Shown here one piece after another: positions 6,384 through 25,655 of a stretch of DNA of 64,000 bases. Both the position numbers and the translations under genes were made by a program. The stretch spans positions 1,334,501 to 1,398,500 of the forward strand of contig NZ_CP038255.1 in the NCBI RefSeq assembly GCF_004564135.1, in the 5' to 3' direction. Numbering within the stretch: the stretch's first letter is position 1; each line of letters starts with the position of its first letter. The notes under the pieces were generated by a model. It had not been told where the DNA came from, searched no databases, and saw nothing but the letters and a program-made list of their open reading frames with translations. This DNA comes from Terasakiella sp. SH-1 (GTDB taxonomy: Bacteria; Pseudomonadota; Alphaproteobacteria; Rhodospirillales; Terasakiellaceae).

Positions 6384-9300
6384 TTACATGTTACGGCGAT
6401 ATTGGCCGCCAACTTCAAACAGGGCGTCTGAAATCTGACCGAGGGAGCAATAGCGCACAGCTTCCATCAGGACTTCAAACATGTTGCCATTGGCACGTGC
6501 CACGTCTTTCAGCTTGGCAAGAGCCTTTTCCCCATCGCTGGCATTGCGCTGCTGGAAGTCTTTCAGGCGTGAAATTTGGCTTTCTTTCTCGTCTGTAGAA
6601 GAACGAGCCAATTCAGGGGTTGGTGGTTCTTCCGCATTGGGGTTGAGGAATGTATTCACCCCAATAATCGGCAGCGTGCCATCGTGTTTCTTCATTTCAT
6701 AGTATAAAGATTCATCTTGGATCATACCACGCTGGTAACCTGTTTCCATGGCACCCAGAACGCCACCACGCTCAGAAATACGCTCGAATTCTTTCAGAAC
6801 GGCTTCTTCCACAAGGTCAGTCAGTTCTTCAACGATAAAGGCACCCTGGTTCGGGTTTTCGTTTTTCGCCAGACCGAATTCCTGGTTAATGATCAACTGG
6901 ATCGCCAGGGCACGGCGTACAGACTCTTCCGTCGGTGTTGTGAAGGCTTCGTCATAGGCATTGGTATGCAGGCTGTTACAGTTATCATATGTTGCCAGCA
7001 GGGCTTGCAGGGTTGTGCGGATATCGTTGAAATCCATTTCCTGAGCATGAAGCGAGCGACCAGAGGTCTGAATATGGTATTTCAGCTTCTGTGAACGCTC
7101 ATTGGCGCCATATTTGAAACGCATGGCTGTTGACCAGATGCGGCGTGCCACACGGCCCAGAACCGTATATTCAGGGTCCATCCCGTTAGAGAAGAAGTAA
7201 GACAGGTTCGGGGCAAATTCATCAATGTGCATGCCACGTGCCAGATAGCTTTCTGCAAAGGTAAAGCCGTTAGACAGGGTCAATGCCAGTTGTGAAATCG
7301 GGTTCGCCCCTGCTTCGGCGATATGGTAGCCAGAGATGGAAACAGAATAGAAGTTGCGAACATCATTGTTCACAAAATACTGCTGGATATCCCCCATCAT
7401 TTTCAGGGCAAATTCTGTGGAGAAGATGCAAGTGTTTTGACCTTGGTCTTCTTTGAGAATATCGGCCTGAACCGTGCCGCGCACATTTGCCAGTGTCCAG
7501 GCTCTGATCTTTTCGATCTCTTCATCTGTCGGAATACGACCGTTTTCTGTTTTGAACTTCTCGATCTGCTGTTCAATTGCTGTATTCAGGAACATGGCAA
7601 GCAACATGGGTGCCGGGCCGTTTACAGTCATGGAAACAGAGTTAGAGGGCGCACACAGATCAAACCCGTCATAGAGAACTTTCATATCGTCCAGTGTGGC
7701 AATGGAAACACCGGAGTTACCGATTTTACCATAGATATCCGGGCGATGATCCGGGTCTTGACCGTACAAAGTCACGGAGTCAAAGGCGGTAGAAAGTCGT
7801 TTTGCATCAGAGTGTTGGGAGAGATACTTAAAGCGTTTGTTCGTGCGGAAGGCATCACCCTCCCCTGCAAACATACGGGTGGGGTCTTCGCCTTCACGTT
7901 TGAAGGCAAATACACCTGCTGTGTAGGGGAAACTGCCCGGAACGTTTTCTTTTAGCAACCATTTCAGGATTTCACCTTCGTCTTCAAATTGCGGCAGCGA
8001 AACTTTTGGAATTTGGGTGCCAGACAAAGATGTGTATTTCAGCTCCGTGCGGATTTCACGATCGCGGATTTTTACGACATATTCGTCACCGGAATAATTC
8101 TCTTTTACTGTTGGCCAGATTTCCAACAGCTTGTGGCAACGTCCATCGAGCGCCTGATCGCGTTCTTTGATCAGTTTCTTGATGGCTTTTTTGCCTTTTT
8201 CGCCGGCTTCTTCCAGCATGCGGTTTGTTTCGCGCAGCTGTTGACGTTCCCGTGCAATTTTGGACTGTGTGGCGATGTCTTTGTGATAGCCACGAACCGT
8301 GTCGGCAATATCTGCCAGATAACGGCGGCGTTCTGGCGGAACAATCGCTGTTTTCGGGGATGAATGACGAATGCCGGGGCCTTCTTTCAAGGTGGTTGTG
8401 ACCTTGCCAAGCTTTTTGGCTTTCAGGGCATTGACCAGTTCATAATAAAGGGCCGTTACACCTTCGTCGTTAAAGCGTGATGCAATAGTGCCGATCACAG
8501 GCATGTCTTCTGGGGCAGAATGGAATTGTTCACGGTTGCGCAGGACTTGTTTAGCCACATCACGCAAGGCATCCTTGGCTCCTTTACGGTCGAATTTGTT
8601 GATGGCGATAATTTCAGCGAAATCGAGCATGTCGATTTTTTCCAGCTGAGAAGCGGCACCAAATTCAGGTGTCATCACATACATGGGGAAGTCAACATAA
8701 GGAACGATGCCTGCATCGCCCTGCCCGATCCCCGGTGTTTCAACAATAACCAGATCAAAGCCCGCCAGTTTGCACGCATTGACCATGGATGTCATGGAAG
8801 GTGGAACTTCAGACTTATTGTCACGCGTTGCAATGGAACGCACATAAATGTTGTCCACATTGTTGGCGTTCATACGGATACGGTCACCCAACAAAGCTCC
8901 GCCTGTCTTGCGGCGTGTCGGGTCAATGGCGAGTACGGCAATGCGTGGCTCGTTTGAATACATGCGGAAACGGCGGATCAGCTCGTCCGTCAGGGAGGAT
9001 TTACCTGCCCCACCTGTACCTGTGATACCGAGAACCGGAACTTTACCAGAAAGCTTTTCACCGCCTTCATCAATTTGTTTTTTCAGCTTGGCGTCCAGCT
9101 GGTCGTTCTCAAGTGCTGTAATAATACGCGCCAGATCAAGGGTGTCGCCTTTTTTCAGCTTCGCTAGTGATTTCGGGCATGAGATATCTTTTGCCGGTGC
9201 ATAGTCAGAACGTTTGACCATATCCTGAATCATGCCTTCAAGGCCCAGTTTGCGGCCATCTTCCGGGGAATAGATTTTTTCAACACCATGGCTCATCAAG

Positions 9301-9644
9301 TCTTCGATTTCATCGGTGACGATTACACCGCCGCCGCCGCCAAAGACCTTGATATGGCCTGCGCCACGTTCTTTAAGCAGGTCGATCATATATTTGAAAT
9401 ATTCAACGTGACCGCCTTGGTAGGAGCTGACGGCAATGCCTTGAGCATCTTCTTCAATGGCTGCGGTGACAATTTCATCCACAGAACGGTTGTGGCCCAG
9501 ATGAATGACCTCTGCCCCGCTGGATTGAAGAATGCGACGCATAATATTGATTGATGCATCGTGGCCGTCAAACAGGCTGGCGGCAGTCACAAAACGAACC
9601 GGGTTTTTCAGTTTATAAGCCTTTTTAGTGTTACCGTCTGGCAT
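6384..9644 (-). CDS. icmF: Fused isobutyryl-CoA mutase IcmF (B12-binding, G-protein chaperone and mutase domains)
   Basis: IcmF interconverts isobutyryl-CoA and n-butyryl-CoA with adenosylcobalamin. The 1086-residue protein carries the B12-binding domain at residues 15-145 with the axial His28 in LFDGHDAS, a MeaB/ArgK-like GTPase chaperone at about 200-520 with P-loop GTGGAGKS (209-216), and the TIM-barrel mutase domain at about 560-1086 with HIQTSGRSL. This order is diagnostic for IcmF and differs from methylmalonyl-CoA mutase. Some IcmF relatives act as pivalyl-CoA mutases, so substrate use is inferred. It stands alone with its own terminator and has two palindromes upstream (9676-9696 and 9787-9804). 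Confidence 0.95.
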
Positions 9645-9675
9645 GCGATCCTCCCAAAAACTTCTATAAAAATAA

Positions 9676-9696
9676 TTCGGTATTTAAATGCCGATT
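9676..9696. promoter_or_regulatory. Imperfect palindrome upstream of icmF, shared with bioB
   Basis: TCGGTATTTAAATGCCGA (9677-9694) is an 18-base palindrome with one mismatched pair, 33 bases before the icmF start. Read on the minus strand it is preceded by AAATAA, and the same arrangement precedes bioB at 22889-22912. A transcription factor operator is the simplest reading; a short hairpin in the leader is the alternative. Confidence 0.45.
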
Positions 9697-9786
9697 TATT
9701 TTCTTTTTTTACGCCCTAACCAAATAATGGAAGGACGTTGAAAAAAGCCAAGTCAAAAATATGATTTGGCGAAATTAAATAGTTAC

Positions 9787-22804: not shown

Positions 22805-22886
22805 GTTCTTCTTATTCCAATAATACCTGAGTGGGTTACCACGTTATTTAGGTCATTAGATACGGGATCGCAAGGGACATTTCAAG

Positions 22887-22914
22887 ATAAATCGGCATTC
22901 GAATACCGATTTAT
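22887..22914. promoter_or_regulatory. 28-base near-perfect palindrome upstream of bioB
   Basis: ATAAATCGGCATTC / GAATACCGATTTAT is a palindrome with a single mismatched pair. The same core, in the same orientation relative to the gene, lies upstream of icmF (9676-9696). On the plus strand it is followed by a T run, so a hairpin terminator is an alternative reading. It does not resemble the BioR site TTATctATAA. Confidence 0.5.
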
Positions 22915-23100
22915 TTTTTGTGGATAAATTTATGCAGGAAACCCAATGCCTTAAAAAGGCCCCCCTCAAGAAAGGGAGGAGGTCCAAAAAATATGTATGT
23001 ACACTGGATGCTCTTAAGTTTTGGGTAGCATTGGTATAGGAATACCTAGTCGATTGAAACCCTGCTTGCTTCGCAAGTGAATATCCCATATCTTCTCCTT

Positions 23101-23295
23101 TCTGACGTTTGACGACGTCCTATTAGCGGTTAGCTGCCCCCGACTGGGCGGCCTTTGTGTGTCTGTAAAACGGCATGCAAGGCTTTTCCTATGGTCGGGA
23201 GTGGGCTGAATACAACACCCCTCGGGAAATAGGTCCGCATGTCTAATAGCATGTCGTCAAACTCCCGATCACCAGAAATTTCTGGTGGTCGCTAT
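23101..23295 (+). ncRNA. Structured RNA with self-antisense segments, C4/IsrK-like in layout
   Basis: Bases 23107-23126 are complementary to 23243-23262 over 20 positions (18 Watson-Crick, one G-U, one mismatch). Between them a hairpin, GCTGCCC/GGGCGGC (23133-23152), shows CCCGAC in its loop, complementary to GTCGGG at 23194-23199. The segment 23193-23202 can instead pair with 23261-23270, so two folds compete. The 20-base target covers codons 2-8 of a small open frame (ATG 23239). Phage C4-type antisense RNAs control a downstream gene with two such short antisense blocks, which is the reason for the comparison; a retron msr-msd is the other RNA with this outline, but no reverse transcriptase is present. 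Family not verified. Confidence 0.5.
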
Positions 23296-23361
23296 AACAG
23301 GAGGAAAGCGACGTGGAAAAGACAGAAATTAATGAAAATGATGCCTTTATTGACCGGTTGA
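23239..23361 (+). CDS. 40-residue open frame under the antisense segment
   Basis: ATG at 23239 with AGG five bases before it starts MSNSMSSNSRSPEISGG and ends in a basic stretch. Its codons 2-8 are the exact complement of the upstream segment 23107-23126, so its translation could be blocked by that RNA. I do not recognise the protein. It overlaps the next frame, which suggests coupling. It may be only a leader peptide or a remnant. Confidence 0.35.
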   Translation: MSNSMSSNSRSPEISGGRYNRRKATWKRQKLMKMMPLLTG

Positions 23362-23375
23362 TTGGCCCGCTGTGA
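23313..23375 (+). CDS. 20-residue peptide frame with a strong ribosome-binding site
   Basis: GTG at 23313 is preceded by AGGAGG at about the right distance and encodes an acidic peptide starting with VEKTEINEND. It overlaps the end of the 40-residue frame out of phase. Either it is the true product of the region or the truncated start of a lost gene. No homologue is known to me. Confidence 0.3.
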   Translation: MEKTEINENDAFIDRLIGPL

Positions 23376-23392
23376 TAGGTAGAAATGAAACA

Positions 23393-23414
23393 GGCTCCTG
23401 CTTTCGCAGGAGCC
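23393..23414. repeat. Perfect hairpin GGCTCCTGC/GCAGGAGCC downstream of parC
   Basis: The nine-pair stem with loop TTTC resembles the dispersed repeat halves at 54384 and 54474. On the minus strand it is followed by GTTTC, so it may also help to end parC transcription. Confidence 0.55.
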
Positions 23415-23423
23415 TACAGGTGG

Positions 23424-25655
23424 TTAAGTAAACTTATTATTCCTTGGGAAGCCATTGGGGGCTAAACGCCCTGCCCCGGCGCGTTTGCCAATCCATGGGA
23501 GCAGGTCAGTGACAGTGCGGGTACGATCTGAGCCACCGCCCATTTGCCAGCTGATGCCCTCTTCAAGGTTAAAGCTCAGCACATCGGACATGCCGCCATC
23601 ACGGTATTTCTGCAAGATAACCCCGCGACCCCGGTTCATTTCCGGCAGGTCTTCGACTTTGAACACAAGGATTTTTCGGTTGTCGCCCACAACGGCAATG
23701 GCATTGCCCGTCAGCGGCATACAGATTTTTGCCTTTTCGCCTTCTTGCAGGTTCAGCACTTGTTTACCGTTTTTAGTTTGGGCGACAACGGATTTTTCCT
23801 CAATGGCAAAACCACGACCAGAGCTGGAGGCCACCAGCATTTTACGTTCCGGGTTATGGACGAACATATCGACGATTTCATTTTCATTGCCGATATCCAC
23901 CATCAAGCGCACAGGTTCGCCATGCCCACGCCCCGGTGGCAGTTTGTCACAGCCAATGGTGAAGAAGCGCCCGTTGGAGCTAAAGGCCAAAAGTTTGTCT
24001 GTGGTGTAGCCTTTCAGCACAAAGCGGGCTTTATCGCCATCTTTGTATTTGATCGCGCTTTCATCGTTGTTATGGCCTTTAAACGCACGGATCCAGCCCA
24101 TGTGAGAGCAGACAACGGTGATGGGTTCGCGTTCGATAAAGGCTTCGAAATTCACCACATCGGCACTTGGGGCATCGCCAAAGTCCGTGCGACGTTTGCC
24201 TAATTCGGTTTTCTGGCCGAATTGTTTTTTGGTTTCGCGAATTTCATCGGAAATGGTTGCCCATTGCTTGGTTTCATCTGCCAGCAATTCTTCCAAGCCC
24301 GCTTTTTCGTCACTGAGTTCTTTATGTTCGGTCTTCAGTTCCATTTCTTCCAGCTTACGTAAGGAACGTAGGCGCATGTTCAAAATGGCTTCGGCCTGAA
24401 CTTCTGTCAGTTTAAAGGCACTCATCAATTCTTGGCGGGGATGGTCTTCTTCGCGGATAATACGAATGACTTCATCCAGATTAAGGAAGGCAATCAGGTA
24501 GCCTTCTAAAATTTCCAGGCGACGAGCAATCTTTTCTAAGCGATATTTGGAACGGCGTTGTAAAACCACGCGACGGTGATCAAGGAAGGCTTGCAAAACT
24601 TCGCGCAAGTTCATCACACGTGGGGTCTGGTCTGCATCCAGCACGTTCATGTTGAGACCGAAACGGACCTCGAAATCAGTGAGCTTGAAAAGCTGTTCCA
24701 TAAGAACTTCGGCTTCAACCGTACGATTGCGCGGTTCCAGAACAATGCGGACTTCTTCGGTAGATTCATCACGGATATCGGCCAGCAGCGGCAGCTTTTT
24801 GGCGAAGAGAAGTTCGGCGACCTTTTCAATCAGTTTGGATTTTTGAACCTGATATGGGATGCCTGTGACCACGATTTGATACATACCGTGGGACAGTTCT
24901 TCTTTTTCCCATTGGGCACGAATACGGAAAGAGCCTTTACCCTTGGTATAGGTTTCAATGATGGTCGCGCGTTCATCAACAATCACACCGCCTGTGGGGA
25001 AATCTGGTCCTGGGATCAGGTCGACCAGCTTTTCAATGCCTGCATTGGGGAATTTGATCAGATGAAGTAACCCGTCACACAGTTCGCCCGCATTGTGGGG
25101 TGGGATGTTGGTTGCCATCCCCACGGCGATCCCGCTGGACCCGTTTGCCAGCAGGTTTGGAAAGGCAGCGGGCAGAACCATGGGTTCTTCTTCTTCACCA
25201 TCATAGGTCTGGCGAAAATCAACGGAATCTTCATCTATATTGCGCAACAGTGCCATGGCGACTTCTGTCAGGCGGGCTTCGGTATAACGCATGGCGGCCG
25301 CATTATCGCCGTCAATGTTACCAAAGTTCCCCTGCCCATCCACCAGTGGATAGCGCACGGCAAATTCTTGGGCCAGTCGCACCATGGCTTCGTAAACCGA
25401 GCTATCCCCATGAGGGTGATATTTACCGATCACGTCACCGACCACACGCGCACATTTCTTAAAGCCTTTGGCCGGGTCCAGTTTGAGCTGGCGCATGGCA
25501 AAGAGCAAACGGCGGTGTACGGGCTTTAACCCATCGCGCACATCAGGCAGTGAGCGCGACATAATGGTGGACATAGCGTAAGCGAGGTAACGCTCGCCAA
25601 GGGCATCGGCTAGTCGGGTTTCGCGGATATCTCCGCTTTTAACGGTGTCTGACAT
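23424..25655 (-). CDS. parC: DNA topoisomerase IV subunit A
   Basis: ParC is the DNA-cleaving subunit that decatenates chromosomes with ParE. The 743-residue protein has the catalytic Tyr124 in [10 protein letters not shown] and the quinolone-determining stretch [14 protein letters not shown] (78-91). The length of about 740, with a shortened beta-pinwheel lacking a GyrA box, indicates ParC rather than GyrA (about 900). ATG 25655 is chosen; the frame continues to a TTG at 25688 without a ribosome-binding site. It lies 58 bases downstream of recO. Confidence 0.95.

Follow-up and report, generated by a model that had tools for sequence, protein, structure and literature searches.

The closest described systems to the RNA analysed here are the antisense RNAs of phage immunity regions. 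In phage P4, the CI RNA pairs with the targets seqA and seqC and causes termination, and the immunity region is described, in the passages of the source that deal with P4, as an upstream target hairpin, a terminator, an antisense domain and a downstream target over the ribosome-binding site (PMC4825925). In P1 and P7, the C4 RNA (Rfam RF01695) is antisense to the start of the antirepressor operon and blocks ant translation; according to the section concerned, its specificity varies between relatives (PMC12197685). IsrK of Gifsy-1 (RF01394) is presented, in the paragraphs devoted to it, as a leader with alternative pairings and a tiny ORF, with an antirepressor-like gene downstream (PMC4825925). 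The fourth system is sRNA-Xcc1 (RF02221), which is expressed as an RNA of ~88 nt in Xanthomonas (PMC2996969, in the part on this RNA) and lies upstream of symE in Xanthomonas cassettes according to the relevant part of a 2025 paper (PMC12444791). The three Rfam families C4, isrK and sRNA-Xcc1 have been listed close together in a Xylella genome, and the portion of the paper that lists them does not link them (PMC12189769). A literature search, mostly outside the subscription journals, returned no paper joining sRNA-Xcc1 with an antirepressor or with phage P4, a link that may nevertheless be in print, and within the same scope no paper on a C4 antisense RNA with an antirepressor in alphaproteobacteria.

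The locus compared with these systems lies in the window, i.e., the whole stretch of 64,000 nucleotides of Terasakiella sp. SH-1 DNA that was analysed. The candidate RNA region (23101..23375, plus strand) is situated between two genes which, following the naming in a first-pass annotation, we take to be bioB and parC. Quite probably, this region forms the leader of a small operon with the architecture of the isrK-C4 immunity region of P4, a reading that draws on what was observed of its anatomy and covariation, on the number of copies, on the empty sites and on pairing throughout the family. The order and pairing logic of P4 recur in the window, with a clear upstream target arm and with candidates for the terminator and the downstream target; what differs is hairpin 1, and the gene of the window type is an orphan sited in an unremarkable part of the chromosome. 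With sRNA-Xcc1 the 3' domain of the window shares the closing stem, hairpin 1 with its AAUACAA internal loop, hairpin 2 with a variable loop and the trailing CACC, whereas the sRNA-Xcc1 model is without the upstream seqA and terminator and the RNA is treated, in the parts of the literature covered, as trans-acting or virulence-linked. The C4 model does not match the window; unlike in P1 and P7, the next frame is a 20-codon orphan stub and no antirepressor, and complementarity to the start region is present but not copy-specific (z -0.8). The isrK model likewise fails to match, and the short form of IsrK activates translation, unlike the action proposed here.

Anatomy of the candidate RNA between bioB and parC

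The upstream target arm, seqA (23103..23126, plus strand), can form a small hairpin itself and occupies an isrK-like position. Its bases 23108-23126 pair with the antisense stretch seqB (23243..23261), as indicated by covariation, by the 275-nt fold and by own-versus-other tests. The first-pass annotation had drawn attention to this pairing, placing 23107-23126 opposite 23243-23262 and counting a single mismatch and a single G-U pair, which is exact. The self-complementarity score of the 20-mer, 17.5, was equalled by none of 1,483 random 275-nt stretches of the window (maximum 14.0), and the 275-nt fold was more stable than all of 200 shuffles (z -4.66). Between seqA and the antisense domain lie two terminator-like hairpins, both with poor U-tracts. 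The upstream one (23133..23152, plus strand) has the loop CCGACT, is followed by CTTTGTGTGT and has compensatory changes at one of its seven pairs; the second (23153..23182, plus strand), seen in the fold and in the alignment of five copies, is followed by CTTTTCCTAT. CCCGAC (23139-23144) had been described as a hairpin loop complementary to 23194-23199. The complementarity is correct by letters and its support goes no further than the letters; the loop sits in the terminator-like hairpin.

The antisense domain of the sRNA-Xcc1 type (23193..23278, plus strand) is closed by a stem of 23193-23201 with 23262-23270, and the complementarity of 23193-23202 to 23261-23270, on which the idea of two exclusive folds had been based, holds by letters. 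In isolation, the domain folds into the sRNA-Xcc1 shape (z -3.72) with the closing stem and hairpin 2, of which 23243-23248 (CTAATA) in seqB forms the loop; hairpin 1 folds differently in the isolated domain than in the RF02221 alignment. The hairpin CACCAGAAATTTCTGGTG (23270..23287, plus strand) is placed immediately 3' of the domain. It is followed by an AGGAGG ribosome-binding site (23299-23304), correctly reported before, which together with a GTG start (23299..23315, plus strand) may be the seqC target of seqB, although not a copy-specific one, and by a gene stub of 20 codons (23313..23375, plus strand). No sigma-70-type promoter-like site was found in 22805-23440.

In the first-pass annotation, the target of the antisense stretch was codons 2-8 of a 40-residue frame with its ATG at 23239. 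That frame exists, but among the four other copies only L003 and L004 have a matching ATG that opens the long frame, and the 40-residue frame was rejected as a conserved gene as its start is not kept across copies. In the window, this ATG is out of frame with the GTG stub at 23313, whose start is the candidate downstream target instead. Nor is a downstream target the main partner: the strong and specific partner of seqB is the upstream arm seqA.

By its sequence, the window RNA is a clear relative of sRNA-Xcc1 under the curated threshold. The stretch 23193-23278 matched RF02221 over model positions 1-87 with 48.5 bits (E 1.5e-7), below the cut-off of 53, and the other copies scored 44.5-47.3 bits, also below it. 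The closing stem, hairpin 1 with the conserved internal loop and hairpin 2 are all present in this alignment. The closing stem covaries in 46 family members and so do the hairpins of the domain, as scored on the specified structure (an automatic consensus had misaligned the closing stem). The earlier description of the RNA as C4/IsrK-like, with its main idea of C4-type antisense control in the absence of a visible phage, is supported in the sense of "works like". Membership of those Rfam families fell away because neither model matched at E up to 10 in a scan of 22805-23423. The C4 model also gave no match in the source genome at E 0.001 and none in 20 family loci at E 1. Rfam over the whole window returned nothing above cut-off, and a riboswitch or other known leader was rejected. 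No phage or plasmid homologue of the region was found by DNA comparison.

Copies in the genus and their paired arms

Four copies are present in the 3.83-Mb source genome and one more in the sister species G001. A blastn search of 60 genomes, including the source genome itself, revealed no copy beyond these five; its sole additional match, 32 bases long, falls on the parC terminator of G005. An RF02221 search of the other four species of the genus gave no match. In the seqA:seqB helix of the five copies, compensatory changes occur at 8 of the 18 pairs and no pair is broken. When the pseudoknotted structure (the seqA:seqB helix together with the closing stem, hairpin 1 and both hairpins in between) was scored, 245 of 245 cells were paired, as against 37-44% when the partners were slid by 1 to 3 columns. 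As the five copies include two orthologues, the independent events are few, and the strength of the result is that none is broken. Judged from this alignment, the seqA:seqB pairing is under selection. Compared with each other copy, the window seqA differs at 4 to 7 of 19 positions, and all 18 pairs are intact.

In the diverged SPECIFICITIES, the cores of the paralogues are near-identical, and the paired arms have diverged yet are compensated. L002 and L003 do not differ at any of 114 core positions and differ at 3 of 19 in seqA, every change being compensated in seqB; between L003 and L004, 1 of 114 core positions differs versus 6 of 19 in seqA (Fisher p 2.5e-5). Measured against ORF third positions, the seqA rate was not clearly raised (p 0.39, 0.27 and 0.025, uncorrected). 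This suggests that the core is frozen and that the arms co-drift roughly as fast as silent positions do, or a little faster. The arms of the copies thus appear from their sequences to drift jointly, and diversifying selection would be a claim beyond the rate comparison.

The energies of the own seqA:seqB duplexes ranged from -25.4 to -28.3 and those of the non-own duplexes from -8.5 to -21.5, with the exception of the orthologues L002 and L007 (-22.3 and -26.2). Insulation between paralogues is only partial, because the seqA of L003 still binds the seqB of L002 at -21.5. A published parallel to such diverged specificities is the heteroimmunity of P1 and P7 by c4 RNA, as given in the relevant section of the source (PMC12197685). 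The candidate seqC, which is identical in three paralogues, pairs with every seqB (-18.5 to -28.1) and shows no discrimination. Most of the variable letters fall in the hairpin-2 loop of the isolated domain, 23243-23248. In the own-versus-foreign comparison, the window copy reached z -4.2 upstream, the best of all, and only -0.8 downstream.

The other three copies of the genome and the G001 copy precede a gene for a protein of 105 to 108 aa, of which the window copy retains the first 20 codons only, with the GTG start and the AGGAGG, the stub abutting the parC terminator. The protein had no match in Pfam, NCBIfam or PHROGs and no relative in GTDB contigs or viral contigs, and within the genus it occurs only in the source species and G001. 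A phage match (E 0.7) and a PDB match (E 0.4) were both dismissed. Confidence in the structure prediction is low (mean pLDDT 66.8, from 3 sequences), and a profile comparison with two other small downstream families showed no relation. Between the three paralogous genes, 9 of 9, 12 of 14 and 11 of 13 changes are at third positions; since nearly all the changes are of this kind, the protein is under selection. The similarity between copies stops within 6 bases of the ORF stop codon, and the left border is less clean, L002 and L003 having ~200 additional bases in common on that side. One copy has kept its gene neighbourhood in both species, where inspection by eye showed no phage gene, and no antirepressor adjoins the copies of the window type.

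Pairing and neighbours across the sRNA-Xcc1 family

At E 0.001, a sample of 289 genomes of the class contained 37 with a match to RF02221, and a sample of 398 genomes of the phylum contained 58; none of 14 control genomes had one. Matches above the cut-off were found in 5 class genomes and 39 phylum genomes, with up to 13 matches in one genome. That number was seen in G152, a genome of 1.4 Mb, in which at least seven of the 13 sRNA-Xcc1 matches (L020, L050, L052-L055, L057, L061, L062, L064, L067, L074 and L077) are followed by genes for paralogous proteins of ~90-120 aa. At L021 (G255), two sRNA-Xcc1 matches lie on opposite strands, ~300 bases apart (1501-1585 plus and 1123-1206 minus).

Phage P4 served as the yardstick for the family plan: Rfam placed C4 at 8507-8420, with isrK (8692-8615) preceding it on that strand. 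By eye, the consensus plans of C4 and sRNA-Xcc1 are alike, with a closing stem, hairpin 1, hairpin 2, a short single strand, the closing stem again and CACC. Many family loci have an arm complementary to seqB upstream of the domain, followed by a terminator-like hairpin, and in some the ribosome-binding site that comes next is also covered by bases complementary to seqB. The P4 order was seen by eye in most of 17 loci (12 of sRNA-Xcc1 and 5 of C4); L104 is without a clear seqA.

Three sets of loci were used to compare own with foreign flanks. The alpha set consists of 77 of the 78 listed RF02221 matches, one at a contig end having been dropped, and L007. The viral and named-genome sets were picked by one exact hairpin-1 motif, which each scan met in at least 120 stretches and at least 80 loci, and among the matches listed, 81 viral and 74 named usable places gave 63 and 59 distinct loci; the domain was taken to end a constant distance from the motif, and the starts of the next genes were picked by script. 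Upstream, the mean z was -2.05 in the alpha set, the own arm being best in 28 of 78. Among the matches listed, it was -1.04 in the viral set (n = 63; own best 4, top 5% 17) and -1.96 in the named set (n = 59; own best 13, top 5% 34). Downstream, the alpha set reached a mean z of -0.62 (own best in 7 of 78), and the matches listed gave -0.81 for the viral set (n = 63; own best 5, top 5% 11) and -0.54 for the named set (n = 59; own best 5, top 5% 7). On both sides, none of 20,000 permutations reached the own-flank pairing of the viral and named sets (among the matches listed), in tests that treat loci as independent even though some are related and the sets overlap (one Azospirillum contig is in both the alpha and named sets, and one Brenneria contig equals a viral one in size). 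For the alpha start regions (n = 72, the window copy being outside this test as its frame is too short), again none of 20,000 did, with only 13 of 76 in the top 5%. That the own arm is seldom the best, doing so among the matches listed at only 4 of the 63 viral loci and 13 of the 59 from named genomes, is explained by conserved letters, which let foreign arms pair. It follows from these comparisons that upstream pairing is general and that downstream pairing holds for part of the family.

A terminator-like hairpin between seqA and the domain is present in 15 of 78 alpha loci, including the five copies of the window type, and, among the matches listed, in 36 of 63 viral and 44 of 59 named loci. 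Shuffles led to expectations of 2.4, 2.4 and 3.0, respectively, and downstream control stretches had such hairpins in 3 of 77 alpha loci and, among the matches listed, in 3 of 63 viral and 2 of 57 named ones. A loop motif of the type CCCGACA/CCCGTCA was found in 5 alpha loci of 78 and, among the matches listed, in 20 viral of 63 and 35 named of 59 (shuffled expectation 2.0, 1.4 and 2.2). The window's CCCGACT falls outside this pattern, which is a hint rather than a test, and the pairing of CCCGAC with GTCGGG was set aside.

Antirepressors are the commonest recognised neighbours in the viral contigs among the matches listed. They make up at least 30 of 61 viral neighbours, 30 of which match one anti-repressor PHROG (among the matches listed), and 16 of the 25 PHROGs listed for these neighbours are named anti-repressor. 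Pfam domains of the same 61, among the matches listed and with tallies that may overlap, were P22_AR_C (13), Bro-N (10), KilA-N (10), Rha (9), AntA (8), ORF6N (5) and P22_AR_N (4). The alpha-class scan, which took in 59 of 76 downstream proteins, gave Rha 4, KilA-N 1, Bro-N 1, two DNA methylases, two HNH nucleases, two HTH proteins, three outer-membrane barrels and others. For the 58 named-genome neighbours, the matches listed comprised Bro-N 11, P22_AR_N 2, ORF6N 2, Rha 2, AntA 1 and SymE 1, and at least 35 of the 58 had no Pfam match among those listed. Taken together, the three counts indicate that antirepressors mark the viral copies, not all copies. In some genomes of the class (loci L037, L043, L082, L085 and L091), the gene after the RNA probably encodes an outer-membrane or surface protein; at four of these five loci, the start region is no more complementary to seqB than foreign ones.

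Proposed mechanism, alternatives and the parC-bioB site

Transcription, processing, termination and translational block of the leader can be pictured from this anatomy. A transcript that begins upstream of 23103 would expose seqA first, followed by the weak terminator-like hairpin; the antisense domain of ~86 nt that carries seqB would be made next, and then the gene start. The antisense domain, once free (probably by processing of the leader), would use its hairpin-2 loop to bind the seqA of new transcripts and favour early termination. It may also pair with the start-codon region (seqC), perhaps blocking translation, and a seqB that pairs within its molecule, with the seqA there, would compete with both. 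In the genus, the module precedes the orphan 105-aa gene and has spread to four places. As the cis gene of the window copy is a stub, this copy may be without a remaining cis target; its RNA may be directed at paralogues or incoming elements, or may have no effect.

A further step is taken tentatively. The copies may represent a phage immunity switch that was domesticated as a multi-copy chromosomal system and regulates a conserved protein, each copy being set apart from its paralogues by an antisense loop and a target of its own that coevolve, and the rest of the RNA being almost frozen. If this is true, solo copies of the RNA such as that of the window may be stand-alone immunity or decoy elements, the putative opponents of which would be phages or paralogues of the same specificity. 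sRNA-Xcc1 would then be, in essence, an RNA of C4 type that controls operons of antirepressors and the like. The main reading itself already ties sRNA-Xcc1, treated as a virulence or extracellular-vesicle sRNA in the portions of the literature covered, to the antisense immunity RNAs of P1 and P4. The basis of this tie is anatomy and the statistics over ~200 loci, some of them in more than one of the three sets. It also places such switches away from any recognisable phage, as several copies whose specificities have diverged, next to small uncharacterised genes.

The arrangement of seqA, seqB and seqC in one stretch, with seqA resembling the start region, would also suit an attenuator that acts in cis only. 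There, seqB would pair with seqA or the start region of the same transcript, the balance being shifted by a ribosome, a protein or a small-molecule signal, and no antisense RNA would be released to act in trans. The nearly invariant 114-nt core is what an aptamer or a protein site would look like. However, relatives of the domain precede unrelated genes, the isolated domain has a closing stem and hairpins of its own that covary in the family, and both P4 CI RNA and sRNA-Xcc1 are made as separate small RNAs, according to the passages that treat them (PMC4825925, PMC2996969), which makes this attenuator unlikely. A MITE-like mobile structured repeat, whose inverted arms serve transposition and whose regulation is incidental, is very improbable. 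It would account for the four dispersed copies, for the end of similarity at most 6 bases from the ORF stop and for the lack of a counterpart at the parC-bioB site in sisters, but no transposase is seen by eye in the flanking ORFs, the ORF changes are nearly all at third positions as in a protein under selection, and the left border, with the ~200 bases more that L002 and L003 share, is not clean. Moreover, the arms covary rather than stay constant, and viral relatives often precede antirepressors.

The window copy could also be a dead, decayed remnant, in which the pairing is inherited rather than maintained. The truncation of the downstream gene against the parC terminator speaks for it, as does the occupation of the site, within the genus, only in the source species. 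This is rather doubtful, as the window seqA has moved at 4 to 7 of 19 positions from the other copies, yet 18 of 18 pairs stand.

The proteins of parC and bioB are adjacent in four sister species, as the comparison of this interval in G001-G005 revealed. The window segment 22922..23391 has no counterpart in the interval of G001, homology stopping at 23392 and resuming at 22921; 130 unalignable bases are held there instead. Between the homologous flanks, G002 has 22, G003 57 and G004 21 bases. The match to the stretch before bioB lies ~1.35 kb from parC in G005, and a different segment, which begins with an ORF, lies between. From these alignments, 22922-23391 would be either a lineage-specific insertion in the source species or a loss in the sisters, and the different segment of G005 suggests that the site may take up DNA repeatedly. 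The pairing that the first-pass annotation asked for in sister strains is missing at this site because the sisters lack the segment altogether; it is found in the other copies, where it covaries.

Several minor features of the interval were also observed. A 77-codon ORF on the minus strand (22856-23089) has a good ribosome-binding site and lies mostly within the inserted segment; it crosses terminator-like hairpins and nothing marks it as a gene. A sub-threshold Rfam match to BjrC68 (23382-23423, minus strand, 25.7 bits against a cut-off of 39) coincides with the parC terminator and is probably just that terminator. Upstream of bioB, the palindrome AAATCGGNATTCGAATNCCGATTT (22889-22912, no mismatches) lies in a stretch that also precedes bioB in the sisters. 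It recurs with three mismatches at 9674-9697, near the start of a minus-strand ORF (6384-9644, 1,086 aa) which presumably resembles a fused B12-dependent acyl-CoA mutase, and the two palindromes are possibly a shared operator.
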